DNA of 22,117 nt, from IMG/VR virus record IMGVR_UViG_3300001450_000020, positions 56,151-78,267 of that record; one strand, written 5' to 3'. Shown here one piece after another: positions 1 through 17,792 of the stretch (the stretch's first letter is position 1; each line of letters starts with the position of its first letter). This DNA is from a virus. Under the pieces are notes generated by a model, which searched no databases, was not told the origin of the DNA, and saw only the letters and a list, made by a program, of their open reading frames with translations. The position numbers were made by a program, and so were the translations under genes.

Positions 1-3000
1 TCTGGATCAGCTTATACATTAAAACTAAGAGAATTAAATTCAACAGGTACAGCTCAAATAAGTTCAATAAGTTTATTAAACCCTATTACAAATACATTAA
101 ATTGGGATGAGCATCCAAATGGGATGGCTATAAATGATCTATGTGAAAAATGGTTACAAGCACCGGATAATGTAAATCCTGCTATTGTACCATATGCTGA
201 TTGTGTAAGTTGTTTTACTAATGTTTCTACTGCAAGTTGTTGCTTTAGTTTAACTAATTGTGTTACAGGTGTAGTAACTTATAGCCAATCTAATCTAACT
301 GCTTATATAGGTCAAGTAGTTCAAGATGCTTCAGGGAATTGTCTTACAGTAGCTACTAGTCTTGCTTGTATTTCCCCGGCACCTTTTACTCCATCAGGAC
401 CACCTTTTGCAGATTGTATTTCTTGTTCAACACCTACTGTTTGTTATAAATTAACAAAGTGTGGTGATCCATCTAATGTAATATATACAACAGGAATTTT
501 ATCTCCTTTTATACCAGGTCAGGTAGGAGGAGTTGTTCAGTTAACTGGTGAGCTTTTTTGTAGAGAAGTTGCTATAGATTCTACTTGTACATTACCACAA
601 GTGGCTGTAACAATAGTTAATACACCTTCAGATTGTTCTGAATGTAACTTTTATATTGAATTAAGAGAGTGTAGCAGTGGTGCTATTATGTTAGTAGACT
701 ATGCAACTAGTTTAGCATTTGTTCCTTTTTTCGGAACACTAAATGCTCATACTGTTACATTAGGAGGAGTTGCTCAAGCAGGTTGCTGGAACGCTATAGG
801 TGTTTTTGGCCCAAGCGCAACAGCATATCCTACAGGAGCTATTGTTACTACATCTACTAATTGTGTAGCATGTAGTAATCAAGGGAGTTGTTTCTTGTTA
901 ACTCACTGTTGTGGCCAAGGTTTTGTAACAAGTCAGATTGTAGGAACAGGATCAGGTGTAGCAGGTACTGATATAGGACAAGTAATTGAAGCAGAAGTAA
1001 CTGTAGCGGGTATTGTTTACCCAGGATGTTGGACAGTATCACAACCAGGATCACTAAATTGTTCACTCGCACTTCCAAATATAGATGTAACAGTATTAAA
1101 CTCAACAACTGTAGGTTCGCCTATAGGAACTAATTGTCTCGACTGTCCTACTAGTCCAGACCCATGTTCTTCTGACTGTGATTTATTAGTTACATGTGTT
1201 CCGAATGCGGGACCAGATATAAATATATCCCCAGCAGATGCAGCACTTGTAGGAACTGATGCAGTTACAATACTAGGTTCTCCACTTTGTTATCAGATAT
1301 GCCCAAGCGGAAATCCTTTACATGGTACCCAATTATTTTATGGGAACCAATTAGGAATAGATTATTCTAGCGGTGCTCCTACACCAAACCTTTCTGGAGG
1401 ATCATTAATGAATGATTATGATAGTGTCGGAGCTGCTGATTATAGTACAATGGGAGGAGCAAGTTGTTGTGCTAATAAAGCAGCTACTATTGGTGCTACT
1501 GTATATAACGAAGGTGATATAATGTTTTATACAGACGGTCATCTAATATATGATTCATCACATAATTTAATGCTTGATAGTACAGGAGCTGCAGCAGGAT
1601 TATTAGGAGGGGCCAATGGACAACCTGGTTTCGAAAATAGAAAATTCGCACAACAACAAGTATTATACTTTCCTAAAACAGATGGGGGAATCACAAATGG
1701 ATTATACCATCAATGGTATATTGTATGTAATACTGTTGATGATGGACCAATATATCGTTCTATTGTAGATATGACTCTCAATAGCGGTAAAGGACAAGTC
1801 TTAGTAGCAGGTAAGAATACAGTAGTTATAGCTAATGGAATTCCTACTGAGCACATGTGCGTAACAAATACAAGAACTAGCGCTACTGCTCAAGATTATT
1901 ATTTTTATTATAGACATAAAATGAGTAGTAATGTTGATTATGCTGATCTAGGTATACGAGGAATTAAAATTACAAATGGTGTTTGGGGAGCTCCTTTTGT
2001 AGCAGGAGACCTACCATCAAATTTCATGCTAGCAACTTATACACAAAAACAAAGATGCTCTGGAGAAATGTTAGTATCTCCTAATAACAAAGTACTTGCT
2101 ATGTGTGGCTTATGGAGAAATGATGCGGCTAATGATGATGGTGCAGGTTATGCATCTTTTTCTATAAACATGAGTGATGGAACACTAACAGGACCTGGAG
2201 ACCCTGCAATAAGGGTAAATAATGGTTACAACGGAGGTGCAAATAATGGTATATTACAATATCTAGGAGCTATTGGTACAGGTATATTTGGAGGATCAGC
2301 ACCTGATATGTGGGGTGAAATAGCAGGATCTATTGCTATTACTCAAAATGGAGACTATGTATATTGGGCCATTGATTATACACCTGGATTCCTACAGTCT
2401 GCGGGAGTGCTAGTTAGAGATCCTGTTGGTAGTTGGAGAGATAGTCTTCCTTCTCCTAGCCAATCCAACTGGACAATGAGGGGTTATCCAGATGATACTA
2501 CAGTTAATGGTTGGAGAACTTTTTCACCAGTAGAACCAGTAACTACAGGAGATATAGCTTTAATGCCTGATGGAAATATTGCTTTTGCTATGCAAAATGT
2601 AGTTGAGGCCGATCTATATAAAGGAAAAATAGGTACTGCTCCTCCACCTGATGGAAATTCAAGTGCATGTATTGGAGTAATTGTAAACTCGGAAAGTCCT
2701 AATCCTACAGATATAGGCAACCAAATAGATGGTGATATGGGTGCTCCAGGTCCTAATATGCTTGCAAGTATTTATAATATAGGAGGAAGAGTTATGGGAA
2801 CAAAATTCCCTACATATTTATGGGGACCTTGTGATTGCGACCCAAGCCTTATACAAGCAATTAATATAACAAACACTTATCCAAACTGTAGTGATGCAAA
2901 TTGTGTTGGTGGAACTGGTGGACAAGATGGATTTGAAATTACAGAATGTGAGTGTACAGGAGGAGGAGCTGTAACTAATTTATGTGATATATCAAATGTA

Positions 3001-6000
3001 GCTAATCAGCCTCCAGCAATGGTTGCAAATGGCAAGTCTTGGTCTCCTACATGTCAGAGCCCAGGACCTCAAAGAATAAATGCATTAGTAGCTGCAGTTC
3101 AAAATTTAGGAACACAAGCAGTTCCAGGTTTACCACAAACATTAACATTTACTTATAGTTTCTGTGCAGCAGGTACACAGGTCCCAGGAGAAAGTGGGGC
3201 GGGAGTTACTTTGACTTTTGAATCAGGACCGACAACTGCTAACCCAACAGGGAGATTAAATAGTTGTGCAGTTTATACTAAAACATACACTATAACCAAT
3301 GTTCAATTTAAAGCTGAAATAGCTGGATCGTTTGCAAAAATGAAAGGTTTAATTGAAAGTAGATTTAATACAGCGTGTGGGTATGGTGCAGATCTTACAG
3401 TAAACTTTACAGATGTAGGAAACGAAAGTGCAGCAACAGATATAACACCAGGTGTAGGTATAGCTAGTGCTCAAGTAAATGGTACTTATACAGACACTCA
3501 AGGAACTAGTAATATAGGAGATTTTAGATTTGGTTATGGACCAACAAATACTTCTTGTTCTAGTGTAGGAAGTAAGTTAGGTGTTCTTGCTTATGCTTAT
3601 AGCCCAGAACCAAACATGGTTCCAGGTAATGGAGGAGCCGGAGTAAAAAATACTAGTTGGGGTAGCTTTATGATGATTGATGCTAATGAGGATTGGAGAA
3701 AAGGTATGGGTGTTCCAGATCCAGTAGTTGCTGATAGTTTTGATTTACAATTAGTTGTAACTCACGAGCTTGGGCATGCATTTGGATTGGGCCATGATAT
3801 ATTTTGGGATCAGGCAGCATGTACTACGTTAACAGGAGCTCCTTGTGGATGCCCTTGTTATCAGGGAGCTGGTAATTCTGTTTGTGGTAATGTAATATGT
3901 GGAACTGCTAATTCAGACGCTTTGATGGGGCCTTGGGCTACAACTGCTCAATTTTCATCAGTATTTCCAACAGGTCTTACAGGATCAGATGGTATATATG
4001 AACAAAGAGCTATCTGTGGTATCTACGGAAACCCAAGTGCAAACTATGGATGTGAAGATGTATTCTGTTTAGCAGGATGTACTCCTTTAGTATATCATTC
4101 TACAGACTTTGTAAATTTAACTAATGTTGCACCGGGAATAATGGACTGGGATGATGGTACTCCAGCCGGACTAAGATGTTGGGATGTACAATATATGAAT
4201 CCATTACCAAGTGGATATGTAGACACAACACCTGTTGTCCCAGTTAGTTCAACACAAAATGCAGATTGTTTGGATTGTACAACTCAAGCTAATCAATGTT
4301 ACACTCTTAATTTATGTGCATGTAATACAATACTAGGAGTACCTGCACAAGTTGTAACAACAACAGACTTAAGTGGATATTGCGCTGGAACAGTAGGATC
4401 AGGTACTATTGTAGAAATAGATTTATATCCAGGAGCATGTTATGAAATAGATTGTACACCACAGCCATGCCCTCCTACTGGAGCAGTGGCTGTAGTAGTA
4501 ACACAAGATCATTTAGATTGTGCAGATTGTTGTACAGCGAATCAATTATGTTATGAATTATGCCCATGTACTACTACTCCTACTTCTAATACTTGTTCTA
4601 CTCTTACTGAGATAAATGTAGGAGTATCAACTTCAAATGGATTTGCATTACAGTTTATTTCTGATGTTGCTAACTCTCCATTAAATAGTACAGATGTTAC
4701 TACATTAAAATATGGGAATAATGTTCAGCCTGCAGGACCAGATCCATGTGTAGCTCCGGGTGGAGGACACTATACATATTTCCCTGGTTTTATGGCTAAT
4801 GGTGGAGTTTTTACTTGTTATACACCTGGCACGAGTACTCCCCCTCCGGGAATAGCAGTAGGTTATACCAAATGGACTGATTTCTTAGCTGACCTTGTAG
4901 GACTTGGTGTTGCCGGAGTTTCAAATCCTGCGACACCGTATTTAGGCATTTCTTCATTAATAAAAACTCATTATGGGTACTCGAGCAATCCGCCTTTTGC
5001 TATTTGGAACAAGCGATGTGAATGTACAAGTGTTTCGGGATGTGTAACAGTAACAAATGATTTATCAGGTGTTATAGGATCAGTTGTAGATTTAACAGGA
5101 GCAACTCCTACAGGTTTAGATGATTCAACATGTTATCTACCAGGAGTGTGTGGACCATGTTCTTCAGTTCCAGGGGCTGCATGTGTACCGGTAGGGACTG
5201 TAACAATAGATAATGTGTATACTGATTGTGTAAAATGTGATAATGGTAATCCATTAGATTGTTATCAACTTATAAACTGTAATGACCCTAATGATATAAT
5301 AGACAATGTTTGTGCAAATATAGATATAGATAATGCGTATATAGCTGGAGAAGTTGTAAATGTAAATGGTACTACAGAATGTTATTATATTGATACAAGT
5401 CAAAACTGTGATCCAAATACCTGTATACCAGTTACAGTAGATAATACTTTTGCATCTTGTCAGCTTTGTACTGGTGCTGGATTGAACTGGGTATGTACTA
5501 GTCCATGTGATTGTACACAAGTAGCCGGACCGGGATGGGCAACTCAAGCACTATGTTTAGCTAACACTAATTCTGTAGGCCAACCTTGTTGTCCTTCAAC
5601 TTCTTTTGATTGCGATCAGGGATGTAATTGTGTACCAGCTCCAGGATCAACGGGAGCTTTCCCAGATTTAGTTACATGCCAGACTGCTTTACTTAATCCA
5701 AACGGAGGAGCAAACTGTTGTAATGGAATAACTCCATCTTTTGATTGTGGTCAATATACACCAGGCTCAACAGTATTTACGTGTCAGGACCCTGGAAATG
5801 GTACTGGACTATTTGCAAGTCTGTCTGATTGTAACGCAGCAATAGCATCTAATACTCAGCCATGCTATGCAGAAACATGGAATTGTCTAATTGATTTAAC
5901 TACAGGAGTAAGTACTTGTATTGATCCTTTAGATGGGACCGGAGTATTTAATAGTGGTAACGGAGGTTTAGCAGCATGTGCGGCTTGTAATGGTTGTCCT

Positions 6001-7515
6001 CAATCTCCACAGTGTACGGGAACTTTAGATACATGGGATTGTGATCCTACTTTAGGATGTGTTTTAGTATTAACCGGAACAGGCCAATATACTTCATTAG
6101 CAGACTGTGCTCTAAATTGTTCTAGCTATGATCCTGACGGAGGAGAGTATGAAGGAGATTGTATTAATTGCTTTGAAGATCCTGATATGCAAATCTTAAT
6201 GGAAAAAGTAGCTGATATGTGTGATGATTGTAATCCACCATTCGGCTTAGAAAAAAATGAAGTAATATGTGATGACTGTTTTGGTAACTCAAACCTTTAT
6301 GTATTCTTTGATATGTCTTCAACATTCACAGGAGGACCATTTGATAAACTGACAGCAATATCTCAGTTTAAAGCTAATGTAGTTATTCCAGCATTTAATC
6401 AATTAAAAGCAGAATATCCTCAGTATGGAGGACACTTATATATAATACCTGGACCTGTATGGTCTGTTAGTTGTAATAACTATAATGGTTCAGGAACAAC
6501 TATAGCAGGAAGCTCAACAGCATTTGAAGACTGGTTAAACTGGGCTTCATATCCGATGACAGGTAATGCAGGAGCTAATGGGTCTCTACCAAATCCACTT
6601 ACTGGACAGACATTACCAAATGCACTAAGAGTTCCATTACTAGGTACAATAATTGATGGTGTAGGCGGTGCACCACTTTCTTGTTGGACTTACACTGCAG
6701 CAATGGCTCCGTTAATAGAAGACATACTAATCCTTCCAGGTAGTTATGCAACTGATGGATTTACCCAACTTAATCCTTGGGGAGATGCTGCAGGCTTTGA
6801 AGGAATAAGTGATCCTTTCCATGAGTTTGAAGGAGGGGATAGAACTGCAATCTCAATGATTATATGTGATGAAGCTACACAGGGTTACTATGCTTCAAAT
6901 AATAATGGAGTTACTGGAGCTAATCCTTTTATTAACCCTATGGGTACGTGCGGTAATCCATTAGATAATGGAGTGCCTGCTACAGATTACAATGATTTTG
7001 GATTAAATAATGCAGGAAACTTGACTGCAACTTGGAAATTACATTATAATAATTACATGGATATATATAGATATGGTATAGATCTTAACGGAGCTGTAAA
7101 TGTGGGAGCAGCTGCATTACCTGAAGCTACAACTAGAGTAATGTTATATTTAGGATCAGATAAAATTCCGGGTCCAGGTCTCTTTGATTCTTATAGAGAT
7201 ATGTTCTACCACATATACCAAGCTATTGGAGGTAAGATGGGAACTGTAAATAATACAGGCCATATAAGTTGTGCAGACTATGTACCTTTACCAGCGGTGT
7301 ATGGATTCCAAATCTTTCTTGTAACAGACCCGTCAATCCCTAATCAGTATATGGGAGCAGCGGGAGGAGGAGATCCTACTCATACAACAGGGTATAAAGG
7401 AGGATCATTAAGTAATTATGGTATGGACTTTTATGTACCGGATGTTCCTATTGATCAGATGGATTCCAATAGGTTGTATGAATTATGGAAAGAATATTTA
7501 TCGAATTGTGTCTAA
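1..7515 (+). CDS. Giant cysteine-rich mosaic virion/adhesin-like protein with metzincin domain (5'-partial)
   Basis: The frame is open from base 1, so the gene begins upstream; the ATG at 124 has no ribosome-binding site and the 41 codons before it look like the same protein. In window residues (residue 1 = bases 1-3): four cysteine repeats of about 70-95 aa at ~65-400; a module at ~441-880 resembling Bacteroidota surface proteins (motifs FYGNQLGIDYSSG, FYTDG, YRSIVDMTLN); a metzincin-like domain at ~995-1410 with HELGHAFGLGH at 1255-1265 and a Met-turn candidate DALMGP around Met1309; further cysteine repeats ~1421-1829; short four-cysteine repeats ~1830-2040; and a vWA-like C-terminus from ~2098 with DMSST at 2104-2108. 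More than 100 cysteines are visible. I infer a fibre, appendage or adhesin that acts at the host surface and whose disulfides form after lysis. No signal peptide can be judged because the N-terminus is missing. An exported host-type protein captured by a phage is the alternative. Confidence 0.85.
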   Translation, partial: SGSAYTLKLRELNSTGTAQISSISLLNPITNTLNWDEHPNGMAINDLCEKWLQAPDNVNPAIVPYADCVSCFTNVSTASCCFSLTNCVTGVVTYSQSNLTAYIGQVVQDASGNCLTVATSLACISPAPFTPSGPPFADCISCSTPTVCYKLTKCGDPSNVIYTTGILSPFIPGQVGGVVQLTGELFCREVAIDSTCTLPQVAVTIVNTPSDCSECNFYIELRECSSGAIMLVDYATSLAFVPFFGTLNAHTVTLGGVAQAGCWNAIGVFGPSATAYPTGAIVTTSTNCVACSNQGSCFLLTHCCGQGFVTSQIVGTGSGVAGTDIGQVIEAEVTVAGIVYPGCWTVSQPGSLNCSLALPNIDVTVLNSTTVGSPIGTNCLDCPTSPDPCSSDCDLLVTCVPNAGPDINISPADAALVGTDAVTILGSPLCYQICPSGNPLHGTQLFYGNQLGIDYSSGAPTPNLSGGSLMNDYDSVGAADYSTMGGASCCANKAATIGATVYNEGDIMFYTDGHLIYDSSHNLMLDSTGAAAGLLGGANGQPGFENRKFAQQQVLYFPKTDGGITNGLYHQWYIVCNTVDDGPIYRSIVDMTLNSGKGQVLVAGKNTVVIANGIPTEHMCVTNTRTSATAQDYYFYYRHKMSSNVDYADLGIRGIKITNGVWGAPFVAGDLPSNFMLATYTQKQRCSGEMLVSPNNKVLAMCGLWRNDAANDDGAGYASFSINMSDGTLTGPGDPAIRVNNGYNGGANNGILQYLGAIGTGIFGGSAPDMWGEIAGSIAITQNGDYVYWAIDYTPGFLQSAGVLVRDPVGSWRDSLPSPSQSNWTMRGYPDDTTVNGWRTFSPVEPVTTGDIALMPDGNIAFAMQNVVEADLYKGKIGTAPPPDGNSSACIGVIVNSESPNPTDIGNQIDGDMGAPGPNMLASIYNIGGRVMGTKFPTYLWGPCDCDPSLIQAINITNTYPNCSDANCVGGTGGQDGFEITECECTGGGAVTNLCDISNVANQPPAMVANGKSWSPTCQSPGPQRINALVAAVQNLGTQAVPGLPQTLTFTYSFCAAGTQVPGESGAGVTLTFESGPTTANPTGRLNSCAVYTKTYTITNVQFKAEIAGSFAKMKGLIESRFNTACGYGADLTVNFTDVGNESAATDITPGVGIASAQVNGTYTDTQGTSNIGDFRFGYGPTNTSCSSVGSKLGVLAYAYSPEPNMVPGNGGAGVKNTSWGSFMMIDANEDWRKGMGVPDPVVADSFDLQLVVTHELGHAFGLGHDIFWDQAACTTLTGAPCGCPCYQGAGNSVCGNVICGTANSDALMGPWATTAQFSSVFPTGLTGSDGIYEQRAICGIYGNPSANYGCEDVFCLAGCTPLVYHSTDFVNLTNVAPGIMDWDDGTPAGLRCWDVQYMNPLPSGYVDTTPVVPVSSTQNADCLDCTTQANQCYTLNLCACNTILGVPAQVVTTTDLSGYCAGTVGSGTIVEIDLYPGACYEIDCTPQPCPPTGAVAVVVTQDHLDCADCCTANQLCYELCPCTTTPTSNTCSTLTEINVGVSTSNGFALQFISDVANSPLNSTDVTTLKYGNNVQPAGPDPCVAPGGGHYTYFPGFMANGGVFTCYTPGTSTPPPGIAVGYTKWTDFLADLVGLGVAGVSNPATPYLGISSLIKTHYGYSSNPPFAIWNKRCECTSVSGCVTVTNDLSGVIGSVVDLTGATPTGLDDSTCYLPGVCGPCSSVPGAACVPVGTVTIDNVYTDCVKCDNGNPLDCYQLINCNDPNDIIDNVCANIDIDNAYIAGEVVNVNGTTECYYIDTSQNCDPNTCIPVTVDNTFASCQLCTGAGLNWVCTSPCDCTQVAGPGWATQALCLANTNSVGQPCCPSTSFDCDQGCNCVPAPGSTGAFPDLVTCQTALLNPNGGANCCNGITPSFDCGQYTPGSTVFTCQDPGNGTGLFASLSDCNAAIASNTQPCYAETWNCLIDLTTGVSTCIDPLDGTGVFNSGNGGLAACAACNGCPQSPQCTGTLDTWDCDPTLGCVLVLTGTGQYTSLADCALNCSSYDPDGGEYEGDCINCFEDPDMQILMEKVADMCDDCNPPFGLEKNEVICDDCFGNSNLYVFFDMSSTFTGGPFDKLTAISQFKANVVIPAFNQLKAEYPQYGGHLYIIPGPVWSVSCNNYNGSGTTIAGSSTAFEDWLNWASYPMTGNAGANGSLPNPLTGQTLPNALRVPLLGTIIDGVGGAPLSCWTYTAAMAPLIEDILILPGSYATDGFTQLNPWGDAAGFEGISDPFHEFEGGDRTAISMIICDEATQGYYASNNNGVTGANPFINPMGTCGNPLDNGVPATDYNDFGLNNAGNLTATWKLHYNNYMDIYRYGIDLNGAVNVGAAALPEATTRVMLYLGSDKIPGPGLFDSYRDMFYHIYQAIGGKMGTVNNTGHISCADYVPLPAVYGFQIFLVTDPSIPNQYMGAAGGGDPTHTTGYKGGSLSNYGMDFYVPDVPIDQMDSNRLYELWKEYLSNCV
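193..1206 (+). repeat. N-terminal array of long cysteine repeats (protein level)
   Basis: Four to five diverged units share the order DCxxC, about 6-12 residues, C(Y/F)xLxxC, a variable stretch with V/I and Y, GxVV or similar, then C(W/L/R)xV. Unit starts are near bases 199 (DCVSC), 415 (DCISC), 634 (DCSEC), 862 (NCVAC) and 1132 (NCLDC, incomplete). The units are diverged at DNA level, so this is an old domain array rather than a recent tandem duplication. The regular cysteine spacing suggests small disulfide-stabilised beta domains. I know this pattern from environmental phage and Bacteroidota proteins but cannot name a family. Confidence 0.7.
4261..5487 (+). repeat. Second array of long cysteine repeats, with an inserted segment (protein level)
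   Basis: The same DCxxC...CYxLxxC pattern returns after the metzincin domain: units start near 4264 (DCLDC), 4513 (DCADCC) and 5224 (DCVKC), and a last one begins near 5455 (SCQLC). The second unit is interrupted by roughly 400 bases (about 4600-5010) of non-repeat sequence rich in Gly and Pro with few cysteines, after which repeat-like sequence resumes at CECTSVSGC. The recurrence on both sides of the protease module suggests that whole modules were inserted into an ancestral repeat array. Confidence 0.65.
5488..6120 (+). repeat. Short four-cysteine repeats (protein level)
   Basis: About five units of 35-45 residues follow the pattern W/F-(D/N)-C-x(3-8)-C-(V/Q/I)-DPxxGTGxFxSLxxC-x(4-8)-(P/N)C. 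Clear examples are FTCQDPGNGTGLFASLSDC (bases ~5776-5835) and the unit ending YTSLADCALNC (~6090-6120). This is a different repeat class from the DCxxC units. Similar four-cysteine repeats are, from memory, common in marine Bacteroidota and their phages, as strings of small disulfide knots acting as a stalk. Confidence 0.65.
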
Positions 7516-9223: not shown

Positions 9224-10369
9224 ATGATATTACAGATCACGTATGAAGGTCAACTGGTAGGGCGTTACCAGAGCATAACAGAAGCGTCAGATAAAACAGA
9301 TATTGATAAAGGAAGTATCTGTAGAGTGTTAAAAGGTCAGCGTAAAAGTGCTGGAGGATTTAAATGGGAACGGGAAGAAGATGAAATTGATAATGATAAT
9401 ATCAATATGAATGATTCTGATTTTAACTCCTTACTAACAGCAGAAGGATTAGACCGATCCAACGTCAAGTCTGTGAAGATATGGCAAACAATGAAGGGTC
9501 AAACTCGTTACTCTATAGTAACAAAGGAGGGAGATCAGGCAATGCGAGATGTTAAAGATGAGTTCTTTGAAAGTTTAAAATCTATATCCCCTACGATTCT
9601 AAAAAGATCGTATGATATAAAAAAGGAGAGTCCTGTTGTATATGAAATATCTTTACCAGATATTCATTATGGTAAGAGAACAGGTATTAGCCCTGAGCAA
9701 GCTGAAGTTAATTATATGAATTCGATTCAAGAATTACATCAGAGAGCGGAAGGATTAAATATAGAAAGGTTCTTATTACCTATAGGTAATGATGGAATGA
9801 ATTCTGAAGGTGCTAGTAGAGCTACAACAAAAGGAACTCCTCAAGATGATACAATGGATTGGCAGCAATCTTTTGTTGGGTATACAAAACTAATGATAAA
9901 AGCTATAAATTATCTAAGTCAGTATGCGCCAGTAGATGTTGTTGTTATTCAGGGAAATCATGATCATGAGCGTATGTTCTATGCGGGTGAAGTTTTATCT
10001 GCGTGGTATATGAAAGACGATAATGTTACTGTAGACAATGATACAGAAGGAAGAAAGTATTATGAATATGGAACTAACATGATTATGTTTACTCATGGGG
10101 ATAAAGAGAAAGCTGCAAATATGCCACTTATAATGGCTACAGAGCAGCCGATGATGTTTGCACGAACTAAGTTTAGAGAAGTTCATTGTGGACATCTACA
10201 TAAAGAAATGGTTAATGAGTATAGAGGAATCAAAGTAAGATTTATTCCTTCAATATGCGCTAACGATTCTTGGCACAAACTGATGGGTTATTCCGCATCA
10301 AGATGTGCTCAAGCATATATATGGAATAAGGAAAAAGGATGTGAAGGTTATTTACAGGTAAATATTTAA
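9224..10369 (+). CDS. Calcineurin-like metallophosphoesterase with N-terminal NUMOD1-like segment
   Basis: The five metal-binding blocks of the calcineurin-like phosphoesterase superfamily appear in order: PDIH (Asp146, His148), GND (188-190), GNHDHE (244-249), THGD (290-293, His291) and GHLH (323-326). It should bind two metal ions and hydrolyse a phosphoester; the substrate (nucleic acid, nucleotide or phosphoprotein) cannot be told. Residues ~5-49 match the NUMOD1 pattern (YQSITEAS, SICRVLKGQRKSAGGFKW), a short helix-turn-helix DNA-binding module usually attached to homing endonucleases. Residues ~55-135 are an acidic linker plus a small domain (KIWQTMKGQTRYSIVTKEG). There is no signal peptide or membrane segment. 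The gene sits four bases after the previous stop and four before the ring-protein gene, so it belongs to the late operon. The second block reads GND instead of the commoner GD. Confidence 0.85.
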   Translation: MILQITYEGQLVGRYQSITEASDKTDIDKGSICRVLKGQRKSAGGFKWEREEDEIDNDNINMNDSDFNSLLTAEGLDRSNVKSVKIWQTMKGQTRYSIVTKEGDQAMRDVKDEFFESLKSISPTILKRSYDIKKESPVVYEISLPDIHYGKRTGISPEQAEVNYMNSIQELHQRAEGLNIERFLLPIGNDGMNSEGASRATTKGTPQDDTMDWQQSFVGYTKLMIKAINYLSQYAPVDVVVIQGNHDHERMFYAGEVLSAWYMKDDNVTVDNDTEGRKYYEYGTNMIMFTHGDKEKAANMPLIMATEQPMMFARTKFREVHCGHLHKEMVNEYRGIKVRFIPSICANDSWHKLMGYSASRCAQAYIWNKEKGCEGYLQVNI

Positions 10370-10373
10370 GCGA

Positions 10374-11099
10374 ATGGCAATAAATTTAAATAAGATAGTT
10401 TATGATATAATTAATATCGCATACGGAGGAGAAAGTTCTGACGATGCAGATGTTAGTTTTAGACAATGTGCGTATTGGGTCATGCAGGAAAGATCGATGC
10501 TACTCACACAAATGATGAGTCGGAAAGTTCGAGTACCAGCCGCCTGTACAGAATATCTAAACTGTGTATATTTAGAGCCAGTAGATGCTTCTGAATGCTG
10601 TGAAGTAGATTTAGGTGTACACGTACTTAAGTCTATTAGTCCGATTCCCGGTACAGTACAGAGAAATAATAGAGATAGTATATTAGCTGTTGAGTCTTTA
10701 GACGGTGCAAGAGCATTTTCAGAGACTACTGATACAAGACGCAAGTGGAACAAATACAATAAATACACAAGTTCAAATGCGAGATGGTATATTAAAAACA
10801 GTTACTTATATGTGAGTTGCGATATGTTGATTGAAGCAGTCAAGGTAACAGGAGTATTCGAAGATCCTACTGAAGTATGGAAGATGAATTACTGTACAAG
10901 CGCAACGAATCCAATTATTTCAGCCTGTGAGTATGACTGGGAATTTCCTTTCCCTATTTCATTATCTATGGCAAATTCAGTAACTAATCAAATTTTACAA
11001 AAAAGAATTAATATAATATTATCAACACCGGGAGATGAAACAAACAATGCAAATGGAGACAGGATGTCAGGACCTACTCAACAACAAGCCAGCAACTAG
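10374..11099 (+). CDS. crAss-like ring/tail-adaptor protein (241 aa)
   Basis: The start (MAINLNKIVYDIINIAYGG), the helix with SFRQCAYWVMQER, and the VDASECC motif at residues 70-76 followed by LKSISPIPG match a family I remember in crAss-like and related Bacteroidota phages next to the muzzle/stabilization gene. In the phage crAss001 tail such small proteins form rings below the portal. Further family-like features are ARWYIKNSYLYVS and VTGVFEDPTEVW. The C-terminal ~30 residues are low complexity and overlap the next ORF by 65 bases. This is the only gene here ending in TAG; the others end in TAA. Read-through would add eight codons before TAA at 11121-11123. Assignment to a specific ring number is not possible from sequence alone. 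Confidence 0.75.
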   Translation: MAINLNKIVYDIINIAYGGESSDDADVSFRQCAYWVMQERSMLLTQMMSRKVRVPAACTEYLNCVYLEPVDASECCEVDLGVHVLKSISPIPGTVQRNNRDSILAVESLDGARAFSETTDTRRKWNKYNKYTSSNARWYIKNSYLYVSCDMLIEAVKVTGVFEDPTEVWKMNYCTSATNPIISACEYDWEFPFPISLSMANSVTNQILQKRINIILSTPGDETNNANGDRMSGPTQQQASN

Positions 11100-11520: not shown

Positions 11521-12276
11521 ATGATTTACAAATTTATATCAATAAATGAAATAATAGAAGGAGTATACAGAGACAATGCTATCTATGAGGAGTTAGATAT
11601 TTGGGATGTAATTGAGTGGGGAGGAGAAGCTTTAGAGCTTATTGGAGCAGGCTTGCAATATGAAGAGCTTATTGCTGAAATTTGTGTTAAAGAACACCGA
11701 GCGCCTTTGCCTTGTAACTTACATTTATCTGATTCTGTTTCATATAAAGGACACCCATTACATCAATGTACTGGTACCTTCGGTGCAATCTCTACATCTC
11801 CTACAAGTACAGATACAAATATTATTGATGGCAAACAAGTAGATAAAGATAACTTTCCGCAGATGGGAGGGAGCCTAGGTGGAGGAGGAGATTGTTATTA
11901 TATGAATGATAATTTTATTGTTACATCATTTAAATCCGGATGTATCTTATTAGCATTTAGAGGAATCAAAGTAGACCATGATGGGTATCCAATGATACCT
12001 GATAATGTTAGTTACAAGAGAGCAGTTAAGTCTTATATAACTATGATGTTAGATAGGATTAATTGGAGAAAAGGTTCATCTCCAGAAGCTCATTATAGAG
12101 ATAGCCAAAGAGATTGGGAGTGGTATGTTAAGCAAGCTAGAGGAGCAGCTAATATGCCTAACTTGGATATGATGGATAATATTAAAACTCAGTGGGTTAA
12201 GCTAAAACCTTCTCAGACAGCTCATCAAACTTTTTATACAGATTTAGGTAATTCAGAAAGAAGATTAATCGGATAA
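11521..12276 (+). CDS. crAss-like ring protein (251 aa)
   Basis: The segment IWDVIEWGGEALELIGAG (residues 27-44) and the downstream GYPMIPDNVSYKRAVKSYI with ARGAANMPNLDMMDNIKTQW match, from memory, the ring proteins that sit between the adaptor gene and the muzzle gene in crAss-like phages. In crAss001 these rings form the tail barrel that joins the portal vertex to the muzzle. The middle region (~residues 90-125, with many Ser, Thr and Gly) is less conserved-looking and carries a GGSLGGGGD loop. Its stop overlaps the muzzle start as TAATG at 12274-12278, tying production of the two partners together. There is no signal, membrane segment or catalytic motif. An ORF in another frame inside it (11642-11842) is a shadow. 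Confidence 0.75.
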   Translation: MIYKFISINEIIEGVYRDNAIYEELDIWDVIEWGGEALELIGAGLQYEELIAEICVKEHRAPLPCNLHLSDSVSYKGHPLHQCTGTFGAISTSPTSTDTNIIDGKQVDKDNFPQMGGSLGGGGDCYYMNDNFIVTSFKSGCILLAFRGIKVDHDGYPMIPDNVSYKRAVKSYITMMLDRINWRKGSSPEAHYRDSQRDWEWYVKQARGAANMPNLDMMDNIKTQWVKLKPSQTAHQTFYTDLGNSERRLIG

Positions 12277-15200
12277 TGGCAGAACAAGGACAGCAACCCC
12301 CTATTAGTTTAAATACCTTTATAAAAGGTATGAATAAAGATATATCAAAGTATGCTCTTTCACCAGATCAATACTATGATGGAAAAAATGTTAGAGTAGT
12401 TGCGAGCTCAGCGAAAGAAGGAGCCGCTTTAGTTAACATAGAAGGTAATGAGTATGCTTTTAAAATACCTTGTAGCCCAGCTGTATTTAGTTTTACTTTA
12501 GACCCAGCTGCACTTTTAGCAGGGGTGCCTTGGACATCTACTATTACTATTGTAGTACAAATGGCCACAGGAGCAGTAGACACATGGACTTTAACTATTA
12601 GTGGTACAGGAGGTAATCCTATAAATACATTAGCAGAAAAATTAAAAGATGCAGCAAGTGCTCCTTGGTTTTTGAATGGAGTATTAACTACACCTAGCAA
12701 TGTAAGAGATAGAACACCTGGTTTTTTGTGGAGTTTTGATGAGTCTTCTAAACGAATTGTTATTTGGGGTAAACCTAATTTAATAAACCCTGATTTAAAT
12801 ATACCATTAACAAATTCAACGGGTGTATTTGGAACCCCTGAAGTAAATCAAGTAACTAGTATTTCTATGACTGGTGGGTATACATTTACAGATTCATTAG
12901 CTTTTGCTCAATGTGATCTTGATGTAATAGGATACACAACACTAAGAGAGAATATATATCTATTCACTACAAACTGGGATCCAGGAAACGGAGATGTTAC
13001 TGAAGCAGCTCTTGCGGCTGATGGAGATAATGGGCAGATCTGGAGACTAAGTATAGATACAGCTATACAAAATGTTAATGGCTATCAAGTATATTTAGAA
13101 TGTATATATGCTGCAAAGTCATGTATAAATTTTACTAAACAGCACCCAATAGAAGCTATTGGTAGATATGAGAAAAAAGATATTCAGGGTATATATTGGA
13201 CAGATAATTTTAACCCTCCCAGAAAACTAAATGTAGCTAACCCAGATGTAATGGCAACACCATGTGCCTTTTTAGACCTAGCTCCTAAAACAGGATTACA
13301 AATACCTACATTAAAAGTAATAACTATTGGAGGATCTTTAGAGTCAGGAGTATATCAATTAGCATTTAGATATAAGAACTCTGAAGGACTAGTAACTGAT
13401 TGGTCACCCCTTTCTAACTTAGTACCTATCTATGCAAGTGATGATCAAAATCCATTTTGTACAATAGAAGGAAGCGGTATAGATCCGGATACAAATCTAG
13501 GAAAAGTTACATCCAAAGCAATAACATGGACACTAACTGGTCTAGATACAACATATGAACTTTTAGAACTAGCAGCTGTTTATAGAAAAGATGCTGTCCC
13601 TGCAAATGCATCTGTATTTTCATTTGCTCAATTAACAAATGGATTACCTACATTAGATATAACTTTCTCAGGATCAGAGGATAGGATACCTATAACAATG
13701 GAAGATTTTTTAACTGGGATTGGAACAACCTTTGAAAGAGTAAAAACATTAGAATCAAAAGATAATAAATTATTTTTTGGTAATATAACTAATACTAGTT
13801 TTAATGTTGAGTATGATGCAAGAGCATATCGATTTAAATCTAATAGAGAAGCATTGTTAGATTCTAAGTCTGATGCGCCTGTGCAGTTAGACGGTGCTAA
13901 CTTAAATAATCCTGTTGCCCCATTTATTCCTATACTAGAAGTTCCAGATGAGCATGATTGTATAAATCGTTATAATGATGAAAATCCTTCAACGAATGCA
14001 GACTGGACTACTAATGACCAATATATCTTCCAAAGTAATGGAAATGTGTTAGGAGGTTCAGGAATAAATATTACTTATAAATTTATAAGAGAGCAACATT
14101 TTCAAGATGAGATAATTGAGTATGGAGACTGGGTAGCAGCTGATGCAGCTGGTAATTGGCTTTATAATAATATAGGAAGTTGTACATCATATAATCCAGA
14201 TCCTGTGTCAGGATGCTTTGCTACAGGAGGAGCACGTGTAAGTACTATAGATAATTTAGGTATAGCAGTTCAAAATTATCCTATGAATAATACATATGAT
14301 AATTATAAATCTCCTTATAAGTGGAGTTTATATGGAGCATATGCTAGAGGAGAAACTTATAGATTTGGTATTGTTTTTTACAATAATAAAGGGCAGGCAA
14401 GCTTTGTAAATTGGGTTGGAGATATTAAATTTCCATACTCATATAGTACTGGTGCGGGTACTCCTTTTGGATTTTTTAAAATCGAAGATTGGCGTGGAGG
14501 TGTAGGTTCTCCTGAGTTTGATTATTTTGATACACAAAATATGCCTTGGGTAGGTCAGATGTATACTAATAATATTGGAATTGAATTTTCAGTTAATTTA
14601 GATCCTTTAACTTCAGGAATAGATGTAGCAGAACTAGGTATCACAGGTTACTCTATTGTAAGATCAGAAAGAACAATTAATGATATGTCTCGTTTTGGTA
14701 CAGGATATATAAGAACTGTTGATAGATTACGAATGGTTCAGGATGAATGGGATGGTATAGCAGGAGCAGTTAGTAATTATTGGGGAGTTGGTAATAGCGG
14801 ATCAGTATTAATTCCATCAGTTGTTCAGTGGGAGAGTACATGTGGAGGCGCAGGATTAGCAAATAGAGGAGGTGCTGTTGATGATTTATGTTGTGATTTT
14901 TATCCTTACTGGGGAGGTGTGAACCAATCTGGTACACGAGTATGTCAAACACAGAAAAAAGAAGTATTATTATACGGGCCATTAGGTTGGCACAATAGTG
15001 ATCCATCTAGCCCTCTTAATTATGCTGGAGGATTAAGTGTAGATACTCCACTTGCTGATGGTGATTATATTAAAACAGAGTCTATCTTTTTACCTATGGT
15101 TAATCCTAATATGGGATTAAACTCAACTCTAAATGGATCTGGAGTAAATTGGAGAATTTATGCAAATCATTATTATAAGTATTATTATCCTGCAACACAG

Positions 15201-17792
15201 ATTGGGGGAATTCCTTTATCTGGCGCAAACGCTGCACTTTATGATTATGTTAATGGTATGCCTGCTAATGCTTATTCTCAAAACCCTTTAAACGATAGAG
15301 TACAAATTAGTTGGGGTGAATGGGTTTCTGATGGAGGGAGAATAGACGGTACATCAGTTCCTACTATGGGATTTGATTTTGTTAATGTTACAAACCCAGG
15401 AAGTCAAGATGATATTTCTAGTTATGGGTCCGCGGGTAGTATGATTACATGGCCGGCATCTAGACCTCGTAGTATTGGAGGGGAAGGGTTTTTATTAAAT
15501 TTAAAAACTGATTTTATAAATTCTCATTATCTTATGGGATCTAGTGTATCTCAAAGTTGTGCTAGTTTTCCTGCGGGAGGAACACCAATACAATATCAAG
15601 CTGTGCCTTTTCAAGCAACAATGAGCTACGAAAGATATATAACTCCTTATGGAGGTAATACTTATTCTACAAGGGCTAATAGTGATTACATGTCTACGGG
15701 ACATTTTATGCCTATTATAACTTCAGGCATAAATGCTACTATTCTTTCATTACCTTTAGTACATGATGTGTGGGGAGGAGATACAACTACTCAGATATAT
15801 GATTTTACCTTAATGGAAAAAAATTGGGGTCAGACTGATTTTGATAACTATGATAGTTTAGATGCTGCTGGTTTTAACGACTTACCAGATGACGCTGAGT
15901 ATGGAATACAGAGAAATGTTATGTTCCCTGCTGAAGTACATCATAAGAATATCATGTGGAGAATGGGTTATCACTTTGCAAACAAAGGAGCAGGATCTAG
16001 TTTTTATCCTAATAATGGTACAGGACTACATGATGAATATAAACTAAATGGAGGATATACATGTGAAAATGATATTAGAACATTCTTTCCTAAACCGTTT
16101 AATGTTTCTTTAGGAGATGAGTTTGATACTAGAGTTTATTATTCAGAAACAAAAATTAATGGTGAGCCTGCTGATTCTTGGGCTACCTTTTTAAATAACA
16201 ACTATAAAGATGTAGAAGGAGTATATGGTCCTATAAATAAATTATCTAGGCTACATGATACAATGTACTTCTTCCAAGATGTTGGTTTTGGATCATTAGC
16301 AGTAAATCCTACTGCAGTTGTACAAGCTTCAGATGGATCTGCCTTACAACTAGGAACAGTTAGTTCAGGAGCTGGAGCATTTATACAAGACTACCAATAC
16401 ATATCTACACGATTTGGATCTTCTCAACAATGGGCAGTAACTAGTAGTGATTCTAATATTTACTTTTTTGATATAAACCAACGAAAAGCATTTAGATATG
16501 GATCAGATGGTACAGCCCCTTTATCAGATATAACTGGAATGCATTCTTATTTTTTAGAAAATCTTTCTGGATCTATTATGAAACGAGATAATCCAATATT
16601 AAAAGAAGGAGTAGCTTGTACATACGATACACAAAACAATGAAGTTATATATACATTTCATGATAAAGGTTTTAATAAGAAAGAAACATTACCTATTAGG
16701 AACTATGAGACAAGTGTTCCTGCTATTGTTTCTATAGTAGTGCATGAACAGAATCCAGGCTGTAGTGAATGTATGAATAGAAACTGTGAGGAATATCCTC
16801 TTGGTACTAACCCTACATACTGGCCAATAGTAGATAATATAATGATTGAAAATTATGGACCGTATCGTGGAGTAATGATGCTGAGATTCGGATGTCCTAA
16901 TAACCCTTTACCTATTCCTAATCCAAATGGTTATAATATAGGAGATGTAGTAATATGGATACCTGCAAGCTGGAACGCAGATCCGAACGGAAGTGATTAT
17001 TCTCTTTTACAAACTCTAGTTGATCCGCAGACTATAACAATAGGTTGTCCTATTGAGAAAAATTCTTTTACAGTAGGGTATAGTGAACTAATAGGAGGAT
17101 ATACAGCTATCTACGATTTTAATCCTACAATATATATTAACAGTGGTTCTTATTTTATTACAGGGAATTCAGAGTCTAGTTGTGCAAAAGGTACAACAGA
17201 GTATACTCGTGATGAAATGTATATACATAATATCGGAAGATATGGAGAATTCTATAATATTATTTTCCAAAGTAAAGTAACATTAATTTCAAATATGCAA
17301 TCTCCTATAACTAAAACATTTGATAACGTTTCTTATCATATGGAAAGTTTATGGGTAAAAGGACCACAGGCAAGTAATAATCCAAACAGTGTTTTAAATA
17401 ATCCAAATGCAGCAATAAGAATTGGTAGGAATAATATTAACACTGTTGATCTTATAGATGTAAGTAAAGATACATTTGATACAATAAGATTTTATACCGA
17501 CTATCAAATGTCTGACTATGTTACACTAACTCCTGGACAAAATATAAGAAAGAAAGAAAGAGAGTGGCAGATGACCATTCCAAGAAATATAATGGATGAG
17601 AATTTAGTAGATGCAGATATATTTAATGTTTATAATTATAATCCTTCAAGAAAATTTAAAGATAGGATGAGAGATAAATATTTATTTGTTGATTTAATCT
17701 ACAACAATTTTGATTCAGATTTTGGAGATACCAGAAATATAAAATTTATTTTACATTACTTTAAAACATTTTTTAGACAATCTTATAGATAA
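12276..17792 (+). CDS. Tail muzzle/stabilization protein of crAss-like type (1838 aa)
   Basis: The N-terminal NTFIKGMNKDISKYALSPDQ with NVRVV and the C-terminal FKDRMRDKYLFVDLIYNN fit the family called 'stabilization protein' in crAss-like phages, now known from the crAss001 structure as the muzzle that closes the tail barrel. Other family-like stretches are VIGYTTLRENIYLFTTN (from ~12924), ESKDNKLFFGNITN and GYSIVRSERTINDMSRFGTGYI. Between the N-terminal motif and VIGYTT is ~430 bases of unrelated-looking beta-rich sequence (~12480-12910), likely an inserted domain. A second distinctive block at ~16740-17160 carries a cysteine cluster (CSECMNRNC). It appears long for the family as I remember it. 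Its start is coupled to the preceding ring-protein gene. There is no enzyme motif. Confidence in the family is fairly high, in the domain boundaries low. Confidence 0.75.
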   Translation: MAEQGQQPPISLNTFIKGMNKDISKYALSPDQYYDGKNVRVVASSAKEGAALVNIEGNEYAFKIPCSPAVFSFTLDPAALLAGVPWTSTITIVVQMATGAVDTWTLTISGTGGNPINTLAEKLKDAASAPWFLNGVLTTPSNVRDRTPGFLWSFDESSKRIVIWGKPNLINPDLNIPLTNSTGVFGTPEVNQVTSISMTGGYTFTDSLAFAQCDLDVIGYTTLRENIYLFTTNWDPGNGDVTEAALAADGDNGQIWRLSIDTAIQNVNGYQVYLECIYAAKSCINFTKQHPIEAIGRYEKKDIQGIYWTDNFNPPRKLNVANPDVMATPCAFLDLAPKTGLQIPTLKVITIGGSLESGVYQLAFRYKNSEGLVTDWSPLSNLVPIYASDDQNPFCTIEGSGIDPDTNLGKVTSKAITWTLTGLDTTYELLELAAVYRKDAVPANASVFSFAQLTNGLPTLDITFSGSEDRIPITMEDFLTGIGTTFERVKTLESKDNKLFFGNITNTSFNVEYDARAYRFKSNREALLDSKSDAPVQLDGANLNNPVAPFIPILEVPDEHDCINRYNDENPSTNADWTTNDQYIFQSNGNVLGGSGINITYKFIREQHFQDEIIEYGDWVAADAAGNWLYNNIGSCTSYNPDPVSGCFATGGARVSTIDNLGIAVQNYPMNNTYDNYKSPYKWSLYGAYARGETYRFGIVFYNNKGQASFVNWVGDIKFPYSYSTGAGTPFGFFKIEDWRGGVGSPEFDYFDTQNMPWVGQMYTNNIGIEFSVNLDPLTSGIDVAELGITGYSIVRSERTINDMSRFGTGYIRTVDRLRMVQDEWDGIAGAVSNYWGVGNSGSVLIPSVVQWESTCGGAGLANRGGAVDDLCCDFYPYWGGVNQSGTRVCQTQKKEVLLYGPLGWHNSDPSSPLNYAGGLSVDTPLADGDYIKTESIFLPMVNPNMGLNSTLNGSGVNWRIYANHYYKYYYPATQIGGIPLSGANAALYDYVNGMPANAYSQNPLNDRVQISWGEWVSDGGRIDGTSVPTMGFDFVNVTNPGSQDDISSYGSAGSMITWPASRPRSIGGEGFLLNLKTDFINSHYLMGSSVSQSCASFPAGGTPIQYQAVPFQATMSYERYITPYGGNTYSTRANSDYMSTGHFMPIITSGINATILSLPLVHDVWGGDTTTQIYDFTLMEKNWGQTDFDNYDSLDAAGFNDLPDDAEYGIQRNVMFPAEVHHKNIMWRMGYHFANKGAGSSFYPNNGTGLHDEYKLNGGYTCENDIRTFFPKPFNVSLGDEFDTRVYYSETKINGEPADSWATFLNNNYKDVEGVYGPINKLSRLHDTMYFFQDVGFGSLAVNPTAVVQASDGSALQLGTVSSGAGAFIQDYQYISTRFGSSQQWAVTSSDSNIYFFDINQRKAFRYGSDGTAPLSDITGMHSYFLENLSGSIMKRDNPILKEGVACTYDTQNNEVIYTFHDKGFNKKETLPIRNYETSVPAIVSIVVHEQNPGCSECMNRNCEEYPLGTNPTYWPIVDNIMIENYGPYRGVMMLRFGCPNNPLPIPNPNGYNIGDVVIWIPASWNADPNGSDYSLLQTLVDPQTITIGCPIEKNSFTVGYSELIGGYTAIYDFNPTIYINSGSYFITGNSESSCAKGTTEYTRDEMYIHNIGRYGEFYNIIFQSKVTLISNMQSPITKTFDNVSYHMESLWVKGPQASNNPNSVLNNPNAAIRIGRNNINTVDLIDVSKDTFDTIRFYTDYQMSDYVTLTPGQNIRKKEREWQMTIPRNIMDENLVDADIFNVYNYNPSRKFKDRMRDKYLFVDLIYNNFDSDFGDTRNIKFILHYFKTFFRQSYR

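Follow-up and report, generated by a model that had tools for sequence, protein, structure and literature searches.

A giant cysteine-rich protein with a predicted metzincin domain, encoded in the tail-fibre slot of a Crassvirales phage

Among the virion genes of a Crassvirales phage we found a single open reading frame (ORF) for a giant protein of 3667 amino acids, in which two beta-propeller-like modules, cysteine-rich repeats, a metzincin-type zinc protease domain and a C-terminal domain of unassigned fold are joined. The protein is probably a tail appendage of the virion, that is, an adhesin with a protease that would bind, and perhaps cut, host surface protein. Of the readings weighed here this one is the best supported, both by synteny with the cultured Cellulophaga phage phi14:2 and by the fibre-like proteins that fill the same slot in relatives. 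An earlier note on this DNA had proposed a multi-domain adhesin; slot synteny favors that proposal, although the vWA-like part of it fails and the part that rested on the oddity of disulfides is weakened.

Extent and setting of the giant gene

The window, by which we mean the whole stretch of 22,117 nucleotides that was analysed, corresponds to bases 56151-78267 of a virus record (G000) that is 86,270 bases long. Its first 7515 bases form an uninterrupted frame of 2504 codons, open at the 5' end and without a start inside the window. The frame of more than 2500 codons reported earlier is thus real, and it is part of a longer ORF: recovery of the upstream sequence, which the earlier note had proposed, placed the ATG at G000:C1:52662 on the same phage contig. 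The gene spans G000:C1:52662-63665, with its first 1163 codons upstream of the window (G000:C1:52662-56150). The sole ambiguity in the ORF is one N at C1:56150, the base preceding the window, across which the frame stays open; in IMGVR 3300020438_000001, the closest relative, the corresponding ORF (3677 aa) contains no N. Compared with this relative the gene is under purifying selection, with dN/dS values of 0.26-0.47 in every segment and the lowest values in the protease and the C-terminal domain.

Upstream of the giant gene lie a P22-like portal, a protein containing an SLT transglycosylase, a Crassvirales capsid (Pfam 1.7e-145) and ring 3/4, and downstream of it an exonuclease, ring 2, ring 1 and the muzzle (Table 1). 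The adjoining crAss-like tail genes were therefore recognized correctly from the DNA alone, and the conserved order of its capsid, ring and muzzle genes places the phage in the Crassvirales. Another giant, at the contig start, carries a DFDID motif and is presumably RNA-polymerase-like.

The three genes directly 5' of the giant (G000:C1:50486-52649; L001:14336-16499) encode proteins of 199, 296 and 219 aa that are themselves about 5% cysteine or close to it. The 296-aa protein is of the collagen and tail-collar type. Conservation of the 199-aa protein reaches into outgroup phages, and the protein shows similarity to phi14:2 gp98 (hhalign E 3.6e-5, prob 71%); its profile match to crAss001 gp38 is weak (E 0.0023, prob 12.5%) and only suggestive of a tail hub protein. 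The 219-aa protein was considered as a counterpart of crAss001 gp39, for which the comparison gave no support.

Table 1. Features located in the window, with the evidence for each
Feature	Position in window	Strand	Evidence
Giant gene, 3' two thirds (residues 1164-3667 of 3667)	1..7515	+	ORF reading
Cys-rich repeat block, class 1 (residues 1211-1597, 8.3% Cys)	142..1302	+	Repeat analysis, conserved Cys columns
Second beta-propeller-like module (residues 1598-2130)	1303..2901	+	hhalign, genome scan, Foldseek
Metzincin-type zinc protease domain (residues 2131-2575)	2902..4236	+	Pfam M10, PDB profile matches
HELGHAFGLGH, predicted zinc-binding/catalytic motif (residues 2418-2428)	3763..3795	+	All homologues examined
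Candidate Met-turn methionine (residue 2472)	3925..3927	+	Invariant in alignment A5
Second class 1 Cys-rich repeat block (residues 2576-2984, 8.3% Cys)	4237..5463	+	Repeat analysis
Cys-rich repeat block, class 2 (residues 2985-3224, 12.1% Cys)	5464..6183	+	Repeat analysis
C-terminal domain, fold without assignment (residues 3225-3667)	6184..7512	+	Profile and fold searches
DNA repair exonuclease (SbcD-like)	9224..10369	+	PHROG 704
Crassvirus tail ring protein 2	10374..11099	+	Pfam CrAss_Ring_2 6.9e-36
Crassvirus tail ring protein 1	11521..12276	+	Pfam CrAss_Ring_1 4.7e-57
Crassvirus muzzle protein	12276..17792	+	Pfam crAss_MUZ 2.3e-141

Modules of the giant protein

The first propeller-like module is N-terminal (residues 1-845) and lies outside the window; hhalign shows it to be homologous to the second. 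Both have matches among Bacteroidota proteins with a C-terminal CHU_C or Por_Secre_tail domain (profile E 2.2e-38), and the module earlier described as Bacteroidota surface-protein-like can now be identified as the propeller family of these T9SS-tailed proteins. A scan of bacterial and archaeal genomes recovered 128 stretches related to the propeller module, and 79 of the 80 loci listed, out of the 128, are Bacteroidota (taxon taken from the record title). Because the AlphaFold models of the giant are of low confidence (pLDDT 60.5 and 57.7), its fold assignments rest mainly on sequence; in a Foldseek search with a low-confidence model, the top matches were mostly beta-propellers. Two Bacteroidota proteins from the scans (L109:6321-10886 and L117:6435-9980) fuse an M43 metzincin, PKD domains, a propeller of the same family and a T9SS tail. 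The giant itself has no Pfam match to CHU_C or Por_Secre_tail.

The metzincin-like protease proposed earlier was borne out by profile searches. Pfam Peptidase_M10 matches the whole giant at 26 bits, against a curated cut-off of 24, and the domain segment alone at 29.9 bits, and it matches 11 of 14 family members. The signature HExxHxxGxxH is present in the window and in all 16 related loci, and the PDB profile matches of the domain are myroilysin, karilysin and MMPs. Met 2472, 44 residues from the third histidine, is only nearly invariant in a further alignment (A1), its placement in distant members being alignment-dependent. When the low-confidence model was used, two annotated metalloproteases appeared among the viral fold matches (9.3e-5 and 3e-4) and none among the top 50 PDB matches. 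From the motif and profile matches, the domain most plausibly belongs to the metzincins and may have protease activity.

Two classes of cysteine repeat had been described, and both were recovered, the first clear, with the unit CxxC...C[YFC]xLxxC...G.V...C, and the second looser. The later class 1 block (residues 2576-2984) includes a poorly conserved insert around residues 2700-2850. The whole protein has 158 cysteines, of which 135 fall in the window part, where more than 100 had been claimed; most other proteins of the genome contain 0-2% cysteine. These cysteines are strongly conserved: 84 of the 158 (53%) are retained in >90% of 13 sequences (the giant included), compared with 277 of all 3667 residues (7.6%) in the same sequences, an excess of cysteine among conserved positions with a hypergeometric P of 3e-56. 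The tail hub and barrel of crAss001 carry disulfides (PMC10172136), so a disulfide role fits the cysteines of the giant, which may well form such bonds, although they could bind metal instead. The same precedent, tail hubs that are both Cys-rich and disulfide-bonded (PMC10172136), makes a disulfide-rich tail protein less unusual than had been claimed.

A search for a phage-encoded disulfide catalyst gave no thioredoxin-family match in this record; matches occurred in 5 of the 12 records searched. The ORFs of three relatives (L178, L179 and L180) were translated and are short thioredoxin-family proteins with hydrophobic N-termini and without CxxC.

The C-terminal 443 residues have been found so far only in the giant family, and profile and fold searches with them gave no match to anything known. 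They had been described as vWA-like. We reject this identity because it has no profile, fold or motif support: Pfam VWA matches no family member at E<=10, no fold match has an E below 2 with the low-confidence model, and the DxSxS-like (MIDAS) motif is not conserved, reading DMSST in the window and DMTSM, DMTSI or PITSE in relatives.

Relatives and the occupants of the slot

A capsid scan for relatives yielded 52 loci. Eleven contigs with capsid identities of ~87-98%, together with two that have partial capsids, were read downstream, and the giant was present in 13 of 13 at the same location, complete or nearly so (3228-4147 aa; two end at the contig edge). With one exception (G008, less Cys-rich), the same three Cys-rich genes precede it. 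When the protease, each propeller and the C-terminal domain were used in separate scans, nearly identical contig sets came back, showing that the modules travel together. In one relative (L070:5208-16296) the giant region consists of two ORFs that overlap (3228 and 474 aa), with the C-terminal domain split off, which may be a real fission or a sequencing error.

The metzincin might instead cut the giant itself or neighbouring virion proteins, making the giant a precursor of several mature tail proteins. We regard this as unlikely: the size and modularity of the giant and the separate C-terminal domain in L070 fit such a scheme, but all modules occur together in nearly all relatives, the L070 arrangement may reflect a sequencing error and no cleavage site was identified.

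Because the modules resemble bacterial surface proteins, we also weighed whether misassembly or a prophage junction had fused a bacterial gene to phage DNA. The probability of this is negligible, and we reject it. The same gene, order and flanks recur in more than ten other contigs, the gene is under purifying selection, and no signal peptide was found in the giant, the N-terminal hydropathy maximum being 0.09-1.32 in the phage giants versus a median of 2.45 in the host proteins. The earlier note had named a host-type upstream sequence with secretion signals as the finding that would overturn a phage origin; that sequence proved to be phage, and the N-terminus of the giant is not hydrophobic.

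Since it has no signal peptide, the giant would have to leave the cell through lysis or as part of virions. A free protease or adhesin released at lysis, acting for example on host matrix or competitors, would be in keeping with this and with the homologous host modules, which belong to exported proteins; however, the gene sits inside the virion gene cluster, in a slot that encodes structural proteins in phi14:2, and we think a non-virion protein very improbable.

That slot, which runs from the auxiliary-capsid-position gene to ring 2, is the tail-fibre slot. In crAss001 it is occupied by tail hub genes (PMC10172136), and in the cultured phi14:2 by six proteins with an MS/MS-based annotation as structural (gp91, gp92, gp94 and gp96-gp98), of which gp97 carries a Major tropism determinant (Mtd) N-terminal domain. 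In outgroup contigs with capsid identities of ~72-75%, other proteins replace the giant, and several of these have fibre, tailspike or lectin-like matches or contain LamG. The giant itself has no Pfam fibre domain. Among the genes compared between the two closest genomes it shows the lowest conservation, at 71%, with ring 3/4, the exonuclease and the gp33-like protein at 93-95%; receptor-binding proteins often diverge fast. We read the giant as a tail appendage on the grounds of the structural proteins in the slot, the likeness of the 199-aa neighbour to gp98 and this fast divergence.

A head fibre or capsid decoration protein that binds loosely to surfaces or matrices is about as improbable as the precursor scheme. 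The crAss001 capsid bears two kinds of fibre (PMC10172136), and the giant gene is only a few genes downstream of the auxiliary-capsid position. Against this, the slot holds the Mtd_N-bearing protein in phi14:2 and tail-fibre-like proteins in the outgroups, and the head fibres of crAss001 are small (gp21 and gp29, 97 and 122 aa by annotated coordinates).

Beyond the relatives, tblastn of the giant against 50,697 phage records gave no match at E<=1e-3, the Cys-repeat blocks gave none in the same records at E<=5, and NCBIfam returned nothing over its cut-off. The literature that we searched holds no description of a protein like the giant. A phage without a Crassvirales capsid match encodes a repeat-rich protein of 1462 aa with 65 cysteines (L204:959-5347); it was considered as a relative and set aside, since it has no meaningful similarity to the giant and the propeller-pattern match at that locus falls in a different ORF.

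Proposed role and comparison with known systems

For the tail appendage that we favor, the following course of events can be proposed. A propeller module of the kind that Bacteroidota export by type IX secretion was probably acquired by the phage line, where it would have been duplicated and joined to the Cys-rich repeats, the metzincin and the C-terminal domain. In the assembled virion, a protein or glycan of the host surface would be the ligand of the propellers and repeats, and surface protein would be the target of the protease, whose cuts would open a way for the phage or release it. Disulfides most likely form among the cysteines once the virion leaves the reducing cytoplasm. The complete version, in which a tail adhesin with an active metzincin, host-derived propellers and dozens of extracellular disulfides cleaves a Bacteroidota surface protein during entry, is more tentative than the appendage reading itself, and somewhat doubtful as a whole.

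The phage tail enzymes known to date are mostly polysaccharide depolymerases and murein hydrolases. If confirmed, a tail appendage with a conserved zinc protease would make the cutting of surface protein a part of entry for these phages, as the protein-cutting counterpart of polysaccharide-cutting tailspikes. With modules akin to the surface proteins of their Bacteroidota hosts alongside a protease, these uncultured phages may be able to hold on to the host surface and also to cut it. The propeller homology ties the phage protein to a module exported by Bacteroidota and thereby makes the origin of the receptor-binding part testable, and the strong conservation of cysteine makes the giant a case for studying the maturation of highly disulfide-bonded virion proteins.

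The giant shares its propeller with Bacteroidota exported proteins that have the NWYFG...LLFYTDG module (for example L118, L133 and L160), and in L109 and L117 the likeness extends to the metzincin. No hydrophobic N-terminus, PKD/SprB-type domain or T9SS tail, all of them features of these exported proteins, was detected in the giant; the Cys-rich repeats are the addition of the phage protein. With matrixins and astacin-like metzincins (M10; myroilysin, karilysin, MMPs) it has in common HExxHxxGxxH and a downstream methionine, but its predicted metzincin is one module of a giant phage protein. Outside the relative set the closest viral protein is BFVD A0A516LFR9, with 34% identity to the propeller-protease part over ~1026 columns and a Foldseek E of 2.4e-64. 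The crassvirus tail hub protein THA, crAss001 gp38 (11 Cys in 215 aa), is like the 199-aa neighbour in gene-order position and high cysteine content and is not homologous to the giant. Finally, phi14:2 gp97 (1275 aa; KC821624) and its neighbouring structural proteins occupy the same place in the Crassvirales virion gene order. Like the giant, gp97 is large and follows the auxiliary-capsid-position gene and a Cys-containing relative of the 199-aa protein, and it is annotated as a virion part from MS/MS; unlike the giant, gp97 has an Mtd-like N-terminus, few cysteines and no protease match.
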